NCBI GenBank assembly: GCA_029261135.1
Contig: JAJDBX010000046.1
Coordinates: 204,158-268,157, forward strand
Length of the DNA stretch: 64,000 bases
Direction of reading: 5' to 3'
Source of the DNA: Nitrospirota bacterium
GTDB lineage: Bacteria > Nitrospirota > Nitrospiria > SBBL01 > JAADHI01
The notes under the pieces are model-generated. The model worked only from the letters and a program-made list of their open reading frames with translations. It made no database searches and was not told where the DNA came from. This document shows positions 51,398-57,205 of the stretch, piece after piece. The position numbers and the translations under genes are program-made. How positions within the stretch are numbered: the first letter of the stretch is position 1; each line of letters begins with the position of its first letter.

Positions 51398-51703
51398 ATG
51401 GCAGACCCACAACCCGTTCAAATTCAGATTGAGATTGACGATGCAACATCGCAAGGAATCTACAGCAATCTTGCGCTCATGGCCCATAACGAAACCGAGT
51501 TTGTCCTCGATTTTGTGTACATCCAGCCTCAGGCACCCAAAGCAAAGGTTCGCGCCCGTATTCTTTCAAATCCGATACATACCAAACGGCTTTTAATGGC
51601 TTTGCAAGATAATATCCGGCGCTACGAAGAAAAATATGGCAAGATAAAAATGAGCGCGGAACCTGACAAAGAATCTTCGCAATATCAGGGACATTACTTA
51701 TAA
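51398..51703 (+). CDS. DUF3467 protein
   Basis: The 101-residue cytoplasmic protein contains the DUF3467 pattern (GIYSNLALMAHNETEFVLDF and ARILSNPIHTKRLLMALQDN). Function is unknown; the family is widespread. It has AGAGAGG just upstream of the ATG. It diverges from the monooxygenase gene, with a 200-base spacer between them, and is followed by the long non-coding stretch that contains the hairpin pair. Confidence 0.75.
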   Translation: MADPQPVQIQIEIDDATSQGIYSNLALMAHNETEFVLDFVYIQPQAPKAKVRARILSNPIHTKRLLMALQDNIRRYEEKYGKIKMSAEPDKESSQYQGHYL

Positions 51704-52052
51704 TCCGCGTACATTGAACTGAAGCGCTCCACCTAGGATCCCGGGACACAAACCTCAATGACACGCTCTGCCCAAAATCCATTGCATATTAGGAAAGGCC
51801 TTTCACATTCTGTCTGTAAATCGCTACACATCAAGCCTAAATCAGGCAATCGATTCAAAGGCAGTTCGCTTATTTCCCAAAACCTGATTCAGAAGTAATT
51901 CAATATTGATATAAAATATTCCTGTTCTAAGTCCTTATTCTACGGGGAAAATGAGATCTGAGCCATTTGATATAAAAGTGGCATCTTCCTTGCGTTAACT
52001 CCCGACAAAACAAGGTTCTCGGGATAAAAAACCCTTGAACAGACCCTGTAAA

Positions 52053-52109
52053 TGAGCGGCGTCCCCTCGTTTCTCCCGACTCCCTACCCCTAGAGGCGGG
52101 CGTCGCTCA
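52053..52109 (+). repeat. C-rich-loop hairpin, copy 1
   Basis: A 16-bp stem (left arm 52053-52068, right arm 52093-52109) with one bulged C and two G-U pairs that form only in plus-strand RNA. The 24-base loop GTTTCTCCCGACTCCCTACC followed by CCTA is almost identical to that of the second hairpin although the stems differ in sequence. Confidence 0.7.
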
Positions 52110-52143
52110 AATGGGGTCAGCATCACCATAAAGTATTTTGATT

Positions 52144-52204
52144 CTCAGCAACGCCTTTTCCGTTTCCCCCGACTCCCTACCCCCTAGGAAAAGGCGTTGC
52201 TGAG
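52144..52204 (+). repeat. C-rich-loop hairpin, copy 2
   Basis: A perfect 18-bp stem CTCAGCAACGCCTTTTCC (52144-52161) pairing with GGAAAAGGCGTTGCTGAG (52187-52204). Its 25-base loop GTTTCCCCCGACTCCCTACC plus CCCTA differs from copy 1 by one substitution and one extra C. GGTCAG follows both hairpins. Confidence 0.8.
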
Positions 52205-52289
52205 GTCAGATTCAGCCCCCTCTTAAAAAACCACATTCCACTTCTGAGTGAAAATATGTTACAAAAACATCACTTCACTTGGAATCTGC

Positions 52290-53636
52290 ATGGAATCACG
52301 ATCAAAACCATTAGCGACCCCCTCAAACCAACGGGAGCAAATCGGTTGGTATTTTTATGATTGGGCCAACTCCGCCTTTGCAACCACCGTCATTACGGTC
52401 TTTTTAGGCCCCTATCTCACCTCCATCACCAAAGCTGCTTCGGATGCTTACGGATTTGTCACGCCCTTCGGTTTAGAAATCAAAGCGGGTGCCTTCTTTC
52501 CTTATGTGGTTTCACTCTCTGTTCTGCTCCAAGTCCTGACTTTACCGATCCTCGGTGCCATTGCGGACAATACGCATTGCAAAAAAAAGTTCTTGGCCAT
52601 TTCAGCTTATATCGGCGCTTTTTCAACCATGAGCCTGTATTTTCTAAAAGGAGACAACTACCTCCTCGGCGGTTTCCTCTTTCTCATCGCCAATCTCAGC
52701 TTTGGAGCTTCTATTGTGTTTTATAATGCTTTTCTTCCTGAAATTGCCTCCCCCAAGGAACGGAATATCACCTCATCTCGTGGCTGGGCCTTAGGCTATC
52801 TTGGCGGCGGATTGCTGTTGGCCATCAACCTCGCTCTCTTTTCTCAGGCGGAAGACCTCGGTCTCACCACAGAACATGCGGCCCGAATCAGCCTCGGCTC
52901 CGCAGGACTTTGGTGGGCCATCTTTACATTGATTCCACTTGCGACCCTTAAAAATCGAGAACCCGTTCAACAACTTGCACCCGGAGAACATTACCTCAGC
53001 ACCGGTTTTAAACAACTCCGAAAAACACTGCGCGATATCAAAAAATATCCGCACACTTTCCTTTTTCTTGCGGCTTATCTGCTCTACAATGATGGCATCC
53101 AAACGGTCATTGCCCTCTCTTCCCAATTCGGGCAAGAAGAGCTGGGCCTTCCGATGGCCACCCTCACTACGGTTATTTTGATGGTGCAATTTATCGCCTT
53201 TTTCGGGGCCATTATTTTTGAATTCATCGCCAGAAAGATCAATACAAAACGAGCGATTATGACAAGCCTTCTTATTTGGGGAGGGGCGCTCTGCTATGCC
53301 TACGCCTTTTTAAAAACCGAAGTGCAATTCTTTTTTTTAGCTGCAGTCATTGCCATCGTACTCGGGGGAAGCCAAGCCCTCAGTCGATCCCTCTATTCGT
53401 TAATGATCCCCAAAGGGCAAGAAGCAGAATATTTCAGCCTTTACGCGATCAGCGAGCGTGGGACCAGTTGGATCGGACCGCTTCTTTTCGGGCTTGCATT
53501 GCAATTCACCGGCAGTTATCGCATCGCACTTTTTTCTCTGATCGTTTTTTTTATTACAGGTTTGCTTTTGCTTGTACGGGTCGATATTCAAAAAGCCATC
53601 GTTTCCAGTGGCAATAAAGTCCCCAGCCTCGAATAA
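52290..53636 (+). CDS. UMF1-type MFS transporter
   Basis: The 448-residue membrane protein has about 12 transmembrane segments and the signature IGWYFYDWANSAFATTVITV of the UMF1/Atg22-like family, proposed permeases of unknown substrate. I prefer the ATG at 52290 (MESRSKPLATPSN) to the GTG at 52248, since the shorter form begins close to the family motif. The two C-rich hairpins lie within about 240 bases upstream and may affect expression. Confidence 0.8.
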   Translation: MESRSKPLATPSNQREQIGWYFYDWANSAFATTVITVFLGPYLTSITKAASDAYGFVTPFGLEIKAGAFFPYVVSLSVLLQVLTLPILGAIADNTHCKKKFLAISAYIGAFSTMSLYFLKGDNYLLGGFLFLIANLSFGASIVFYNAFLPEIASPKERNITSSRGWALGYLGGGLLLAINLALFSQAEDLGLTTEHAARISLGSAGLWWAIFTLIPLATLKNREPVQQLAPGEHYLSTGFKQLRKTLRDIKKYPHTFLFLAAYLLYNDGIQTVIALSSQFGQEELGLPMATLTTVILMVQFIAFFGAIIFEFIARKINTKRAIMTSLLIWGGALCYAYAFLKTEVQFFFLAAVIAIVLGGSQALSRSLYSLMIPKGQEAEYFSLYAISERGTSWIGPLLFGLALQFTGSYRIALFSLIVFFITGLLLLVRVDIQKAIVSSGNKVPSLE

Positions 53637-55180: not shown

Positions 55181-55302
55181 ATATCTTAAACTGAAGACCC
55201 AAGATGGGAATGCATTTTCAACTTTGCTTGAAACATTGAATAAATCCTATCAAACAAAATCCCGTTACTGAGAATAGAAAACCCATGGATATACATGCTA
55301 AA

Positions 55303-55373
55303 AAATAACATGATTCAAAAATTTTATTTTTCTCAAGTATTAAATTTGCTTCAATTTTTGAATCATGTTATTT
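55303..55373. repeat. 71-base element with 21-bp perfect inverted repeats
   Basis: Arms 55303-55323 and 55353-55373 (beginning AAATAACATGATTCAAAAAT) are perfectly complementary, with a 29-base AT-rich centre. It lies between hemE and the DUF3332 gene, which are divergently transcribed, so it is not placed as an ordinary convergent terminator. It could be a small mobile repeat, an operator or a terminator of an unrecognised short transcript. The rest of the 358-base gap holds no clear gene; a 41-codon plus-strand frame at 55146-55271 overlaps the hemE promoter. Confidence 0.6.
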
Positions 55374-55466
55374 ATCCACGAGAGCAATCCCATTCTTGCT
55401 ACATCATTCTAATTGTCGCAATGAATAGTGGCAAGATCTCTTAAACCTGATGTAAAGGAGGAAAAA

Positions 55467-56090
55467 ATGAAGAGAAGACGTTACAACATTACGGGTGTGT
55501 CTGTACTTCTGCTTGTAGCACTGATCGGAACAGGTTGTGTCGGTCGATTTGCAGCATTTAATAAGCTTTCAGATTGGAATCAAAAAGCCCACGACAACAA
55601 ATATGTGAATGAGGTCATTTTCTTGGCCCTCAACATCATTCCTGTTTACCCCATTGCCCTCCTTGCGGATGCCATTGTCATTAACTCCATCGAGTTTTGG
55701 ACAGGGGACAACATTATCTTATCAGAAGGGGAGACTCAAAAGGTCGTTGAAGCCGGCAAAGATAAAGTCATCCAAACGTTTTATCAAACGGATGATCTTA
55801 AAAAGGTTGTCATAGAATATTATCACGAGAACCAACTTGTAAAGACAGTAAGACTTTCACAACACATTGAATCTCCAACCTTCCAAGAAGTCGTAACCGA
55901 TGCGAATGGGATTGTTGATCAATATGTTATTCAGCCAGAAGCATCAAAGATTATGGTTTCTCATATCAGCCATCAAGAAAAAATTCACAATTCAAATGTC
56001 ATCACAGGAACTGAATTGGCATCTTTATCTGAACAAGTTTCAAAGTTGATTGACTCACCTGAAATTCAATTAGCCTCTATCCACGAATAA
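55467..56090 (+). CDS. DUF3332 lipoprotein
   Basis: The 207-residue protein has a lipoprotein signal (MKRRRYNITG ... ALIGTGC) and the DUF3332 core NIIPVYPIALLADAIVINSI with IEFWTG following. A strong AAAGGAGG five bases before the ATG at 55467 fixes the start. The function of the family is unknown; it is membrane-anchored with two hydrophobic stretches. A hairpin immediately follows the stop codon. Confidence 0.8.
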   Translation: MKRRRYNITGVSVLLLVALIGTGCVGRFAAFNKLSDWNQKAHDNKYVNEVIFLALNIIPVYPIALLADAIVINSIEFWTGDNIILSEGETQKVVEAGKDKVIQTFYQTDDLKKVVIEYYHENQLVKTVRLSQHIESPTFQEVVTDANGIVDQYVIQPEASKIMVSHISHQEKIHNSNVITGTELASLSEQVSKLIDSPEIQLASIHE

Positions 56091-56095
56091 TTTTT

Positions 56096-56145
56096 CGACA
56101 AAAGAGTGCTTCGTGAATCAAAATATGCGGAGTACTCTTTTGTCG
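56096..56145 (+). terminator. Hairpin after the DUF3332 gene
   Basis: CGACAAAAGAGT (56096-56107) pairs with ACTCTTTTGTCG (56134-56145), a 12-bp perfect stem with a 26-base middle, six bases after the stop codon. No T tract follows, so its strength as a terminator is uncertain. Confidence 0.5.
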
Positions 56146-56224
56146 GACAAGAAGCTAATTTCCCTTTGACCTCATTGAAAAACCAAAGAATAAAAACTTA
56201 CAAAATCAACTCATTAGAATCTAG

Positions 56225-57116: not shown

Positions 57117-57122
57117 CCGCTT

Positions 57123-57170
57123 AAAGCATCCCAAAACTCTATTTGATCAAATAGAGTTTTGGGATGCTTT
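57123..57170 (+). terminator. Perfect 24-bp palindrome, probable bidirectional terminator
   Basis: The sequence from AAAGCATCCCAAAACTCTAT to its exact complement (57123-57170) is a perfect palindrome centred on GATC. It lies a few bases after the stop at 57116, in the convergent gap before the HAD gene. The tail ATAATAG is poor in T, but the stem is very stable. Confidence 0.6.
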
Positions 57171-57205
57171 ATAATAGTTCTATTTCTCGCGTCCTCCAAT
57201 AAAGA

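Follow-up and report, generated by a model that had tools for sequence, protein, structure and literature searches.

Two plus-strand hairpins that carry almost the same C-rich loop lie upstream of an atg22 transporter gene in the window, the 64,000-nt stretch of Nitrospirota DNA analysed here. We lean towards the view that they originated as 3′-UTR hairpins of a sigma54-transcribed gene for an FN3-repeat surface protein, now stand alone, and probably act in trans via their C-rich loops. A more specific proposal, which we put forward tentatively, is that the locus holds a small RNA caught at birth, in that deletion of a riboswitch and a coding region joined a sigma54 promoter to a duplicated, loop-conserved 3′-UTR element. 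The origins of bacterial small RNAs are as a rule reconstructed in retrospect; the five related genomes would present both the before state (an mRNA 3′ UTR) and the after state (promoter and hairpins, with the gene gone), and with both states visible one can test directly whether an sRNA arises when an mRNA loses its coding part. We know of little sRNA work in Nitrospirota, to which the element adds a conserved C-loop RNA, one tied to the control of a surface protein by sigma54 and c-di-GMP. If the proposal is true, the stand-alone RNA would link this control (sigma54 in the window genome, with c-di-GMP in its relatives) to trans regulation through C-loops, and would do so in a bacterium in which Hfq was not found.

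A conserved loop on drifting stems

Hairpin 1 (52053–52109, plus strand, with an outer stem reaching about 52042–52118) has a 24-nt loop (GTTTCTCCCGACTCCCTACCCCTA, 52069–52092, plus strand) on a 15–16 bp stem that contains one bulge, and the core of the hairpin has two G-U pairs on the plus strand. Hairpin 2 (52144–52204, plus strand, outer stem reaching about 52137–52209) has a perfect 18 bp stem and a 25-nt loop (GTTTCCCCCGACTCCCTACCCCCTA, 52162–52186, plus strand). The loops, which bear CCC and CCCC runs within mixed sequence, are the same but for one T/C substitution and an extra C, and the spacing between the hairpins is 34 nt; this arrangement had been described in an earlier sequence-only reading of this DNA, and folding confirms it. 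The predicted fold of the hairpin region has an energy of −81.6 kcal/mol (z = −7.05), with 0 of 200 shuffles as good. Within the 3.2 Mb window genome the exact loop core occurs twice, in the two hairpin loops and on the same strand, and in the 446 kb of that genome on which our hairpin census and target tests are based, only a handful of hairpins combine at least 14 Watson-Crick pairs with a loop of more than 20 nt. GGTCAG is indeed present 3′ of both hairpins, as had been pointed out, but it is partly paired in the outer stem and is not kept in relatives. No U-run was found after hairpin 1 or hairpin 2, and a terminator scan returned none after hairpin 2, its sole match being a weak site at 51962–51982; lacking a U-tract, the hairpins are not intrinsic terminators.

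The architecture is shared by four congeners, the Nitrospirota MAGs G001–G004 (OFTM211, FO_M_Nitrospirota_01.1, 128-326_metabat2 and M_MetaBat.18; the window genome is G000). A search for the loop yielded exact copies in two of them and BLAST added a third genome, the hairpins of all three having the same architecture and altered stems. A covariance-model search of related genomes, which the sequence-only reading had suggested, was run with a model built from seven hairpins, G004 being left out of the building; it matched all five genomes of the genus at one locus each (G004 at E=1.7e-12) and, among 53 genomes from the rest of the class, none. Two hairpins are present in the window genome, G001 and G003, and one in G002 and G004, which the Atg22 tree groups at 94/96 support. 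We did not find the element outside the genus. Across GTDB species the loop pattern occurs in the four congeners and in two further bacteria, a cyanobacterium and a Chitinophagaceae bacterium, where the matches do not fold into the hairpin and were rejected as chance-like; one-mismatch 16-mer matches elsewhere in the class had no hairpin of this kind in the flanking sequence that was read, and a phage collection gave no homologue, its sole match being a 27-base one by chance.

Covariation supports the stems. Among the 18 pairs of the seven-sequence alignment, 12 carry double compensatory changes. Pairing holds in 91.7% of cells as compared to 73.6% after shuffling, and the covariation score is 0.627 as compared to 0.303; in all slid versions of the alignment the pairing collapses. 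When ten hairpins are scored under strand-neutral pairing, there are 20 G-T appositions against 6 A-C ones (p=0.009 if the cells are treated as independent, which they are not fully), an excess that favours plus-strand RNA. The earlier suggestion of a plus-strand structured RNA with a conserved loop is thus supported. Rfam gave no relevant match in the window at the gathering score, nor at relaxed thresholds across 51650–52350: the hairpin pair is a real RNA element, genus-restricted and, again as proposed, undescribed in Rfam.

Three species have the same loop 1 (GTTTCTCCCGACTCCCTACCCC) on differing stems, the first 22 nt of the window's copy being those of G001 and G003. In these two congeners loop 2 has drifted while loop 1 stays canonical, and in the single-hairpin genomes G002 and G004 the loop is near-canonical, such that no locus is without a canonical or near-canonical loop. 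As the stems drift with compensation while one canonical loop is always kept, it seems likely that function resides in the loop and that the stems only display it.

An FN3 gene in relatives, a promoter and hairpins in the window

In G001–G004 the hairpins begin about 15–25 nt past the stop codon of an FN3-repeat surface-protein gene and precede atg22. Comparison shows that the locus order in these four congeners is a sigma54-type promoter, a c-di-GMP-I riboswitch (in three), the FN3 gene, the C-loop hairpin(s) and atg22. Upstream, synteny is anchored in every congener examined for it by a DUF3467 gene (51398–51703 of the window, plus strand; Pfam PF11950, E=4e-26; synteny with G001–G003). The downstream anchor is the Atg22/UMF1-type MFS transporter gene (52290–53636, plus strand, with the ATG start likely at 52290; PF11700, E=3e-110), which is 74–78% identical in the four congeners and has the element upstream in all five genomes. 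The intergenic region on the DUF3467 side is a variable spot in the genus; G001 has a dehydrogenase-like ORF (L019:9012-9962) between the DUF3467 and FN3 genes. The FN3 protein ends in a GGGGCG...KK tail that includes a hydrophobic stretch, which by sequence looks like a surface-anchoring signal; it had no NCBIfam sorting-signal match. In G004 the FN3 gene reads as two overlapping frames.

The c-di-GMP-I riboswitch (RF01051) scores above gathering 5′ of the FN3 gene in G002 and G003 and of an FN3 paralogue on contig C35 of the window genome; G004 has a sub-threshold match to the related RF03167, and no riboswitch was found before FN3 in G001 or before a second paralogue, on contig C13. Upstream of FN3, each of G001–G004 has a sigma54 motif and, after it, an initial transcribed region that is similar; the motif is perfect in G001, in G003 and before the C35 paralogue, one position off in G002 and G004, and was not found before the C13 paralogue. 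The two paralogues of the window genome also have post-stop hairpins (L115:11956-12020 on C13; C35:25337-25359, L066 and L074), with unlike stems and one common AU-rich loop, TTTATCATA-YTYTTCATAA-YTTA, which was not found elsewhere in the genus and is absent from the congeners. Taken together, the C-loop and AU-loop hairpins indicate that a hairpin placed after the stop codon, with a constant loop on drifting stems, is a recurring feature of this gene family.

The 3′-UTR location thus holds in G001–G004, the window itself being without such an ORF: between the end of the DUF3467 gene (51703) and hairpin 1 we found no FN3 gene and, by tblastn, no FN3 remnant, and a relaxed Rfam search of 51650–52350 found no riboswitch. 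What is kept are the two hairpins, with their pairing intact, and a sigma54-type promoter, TGGCAT-N5-TTGC (51979–51993, plus strand), homologous to the FN3 promoter of relatives. This motif is a perfect −24/−12 match, one of three in 446 kb counting both strands; another of them is the promoter of the C35 FN3 paralogue. In the window the motif precedes TTAACTCCCGACAAAACAA, which resembles the FN3 initial transcribed region of G002 (TTATCCCCCTTCAAAACAA) and, less so, those of G003 and G001; the homology beyond the motif is a short one, of 34 nt (79% as compared to G002, E=0.026). The window genome has rpoN, and TGGCAY-N5-TTGC together with rpoN makes this a predicted sigma54-dependent unit.

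The simplest history would be a deletion that fused the FN3 promoter to the gene's own 3′-UTR hairpins. The apparent deletion may reflect misassembly of the MAG, and retention of the hairpins could mean that the gene loss was recent instead of that they function. If the fusion is genuine, the promoter would now drive a noncoding RNA of ~205 nt that includes both hairpins, predicted at 52005–52210 on the plus strand (start placed 12 nt past the −12 element, end at the foot of hairpin 2) and folding at −86.0 kcal/mol. As there is no intrinsic terminator after hairpin 2, the transcript may end by processing or by Rho, or may continue into atg22.

Proposed action in trans and its alternatives

The predicted RNA would display two copies of one C-rich loop on RNase III-type stems, and the loops would pair with G-rich mRNA sites, probably without Hfq. 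No Hfq match was found in the window genome, which fits chaperone-independent C-loop RNAs. The sequence-only reading had cast the loop as an anti-Shine-Dalgarno sequence, a proposal that gains no specific support: over 330 translation starts the loop pairs no better than shuffled loops (mean duplex energy −9.99 vs −10.46 for shuffled loops; start-minus-control difference −2.0 vs −1.9 ± 0.4), and at FN3's own ribosome-binding site its pairing is no better than background. A scan for loop-complementary mRNA sites, also suggested earlier, revealed no genome-wide enrichment of long complements, with 23 sites (two self sites included) as compared to 27 for the reversed control. One 18-mer, GGAGCAGGGAGTCGGAGG, a loop complement with three mismatches, occurs on two different contigs (G000:C44:12231-12248, L138; G000:C75:2458-2475, L145).

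That the hairpins adjoin the FN3 stop codon in relatives and have no U-tract, hence are not intrinsic terminators, also suits a purely cis-acting role, in which they would block 3′-5′ exonucleases and, by way of C-rich loops and a tail that resemble rut sites, help Rho to stop FN3 transcription short of atg22; the copies in the window would be a leftover or an insulator of atg22. Between 52020 and 52260, several 78-nt windows are in the genome's top 2–10% for C over G, which makes a rut element possible and not exceptional, and other long hairpins of this genome lie directly 3′ of stop codons. We nevertheless regard an exclusively cis-acting role as rather unlikely. It leaves unexplained the near-identity of the loops, across species and between copies, despite the change in the stems; the AU-rich loops of the C13 and C35 paralogues would not serve as a rut site; and in the window the hairpins have outlasted the FN3 gene. 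Elsewhere in the window, very long and nearly perfect post-stop hairpins without U-runs are seen at 56091–56150 and 57121–57172, as if the lineage used long hairpins as mRNA 3′ ends, and a 22-bp hairpin with a 29-nt loop (55301–55375) is intergenic, upstream of a lipoprotein-like gene (55428–56090).

The sequence-only reading had also offered a leader of the UMF1-type transporter. As a 5′ leader of the atg22 mRNA, reached by read-through of the sigma54 transcript, the loops would regulate the transporter in cis; this is geometrically possible in the window, where no gene separates the hairpins from atg22, and the two stay together in all five genomes, the FN3-less one included. In the four relatives, however, the hairpins are the 3′ UTR of the upstream FN3 gene, adjoining its stop codon and not the atg22 start, an origin that was missed earlier because the window genome has lost the FN3 gene from this locus. 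Moreover, a more distant relative (G005) carries atg22 without the element, and in G002 and G004 a promoter-like TGCTATAAAA lies within a dyad between the hairpin and the start codon, and we consider a leader role improbable. Least credible of all, to the point of being very nearly dismissed, is an element that works as DNA, be it a single-strand recombination site, a mobile hairpin or a minus-strand G-quadruplex. A constant loop on variable stems and a G-rich complement would suit it, but there are only two copies in the window genome, in one orientation, at a location that is fixed in five species; the G-U bias points to plus-strand RNA; and the conserved loop has only three G-runs of at least 3, so that there is no conserved canonical quadruplex. 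A REP/MITE-type mobile repeat, which the sequence-only reading had considered in the form of copies all over the genome in both orientations, was checked and rejected, the two copies being on the same strand at one locus and relatives having a single locus per genome. The dyad upstream of atg22 is also present in the window (52231–52290), where its arms, like those in G002 and G004, enclose a promoter-like sequence of the TATGTTA/TGCTATAAAA kind; it may be an operator that overlies the promoter of the transporter itself.

Relation to known C-loop and 3′-UTR-derived RNAs

In its working the element is probably akin, by analogy, to 6C, RepG and CJnc190, being a member of none of them. The actinobacterial 6C RNA (RF01066) is about 100 nt long and has two stem-loops, each with a cytosine run; the mycobacterial sRNA B11 represses its targets through a C-rich loop (PMC4046766, PMC12395582), and 6C acts through its C-rich loops without RNA chaperones according to a study cited in PMC12395582. 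The window element likewise consists of a pair of stem-loops, each loop having C runs. Unlike 6C, its loops are 24–25 nt long with a fixed mixed sequence, its stems are 15–22 bp, it is without an intrinsic terminator, its predicted promoter is of the sigma54 type and its host belongs to another phylum; 6C itself gave no match in the window at the gathering score, nor at E<=5 in 51650–52350. In RepG of Helicobacter pylori and CJnc190 of Campylobacter jejuni, the latter matured from precursors by RNase III, a C/U-rich loop targets G-rich mRNA sites (PMC8295292, PMC8687705), and pairing with such sites via C-rich loops is reported for B11, RepG and CJnc190 alike (PMC4046766, PMC12395582, PMC8295292, PMC8687705). 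RepG and CJnc190 differ from the window element in having a single loop, no tandem duplication and no link to the 3′ UTR of an FN3 gene; their targets are known.

Small RNAs derived from 3′ UTRs are either processed from the mRNA or made from their own promoter (PMC8687705). The C-loop element, which in relatives lies in an mRNA 3′ UTR, would by its sequence context be an RNA of this 3′-UTR-derived, C-loop kind. Most of the examples described come from Gammaproteobacteria, and Hfq is often involved; unlike them, the element has in one species lost the parental coding region, so that the promoter of the mRNA now immediately precedes the 3′ UTR.
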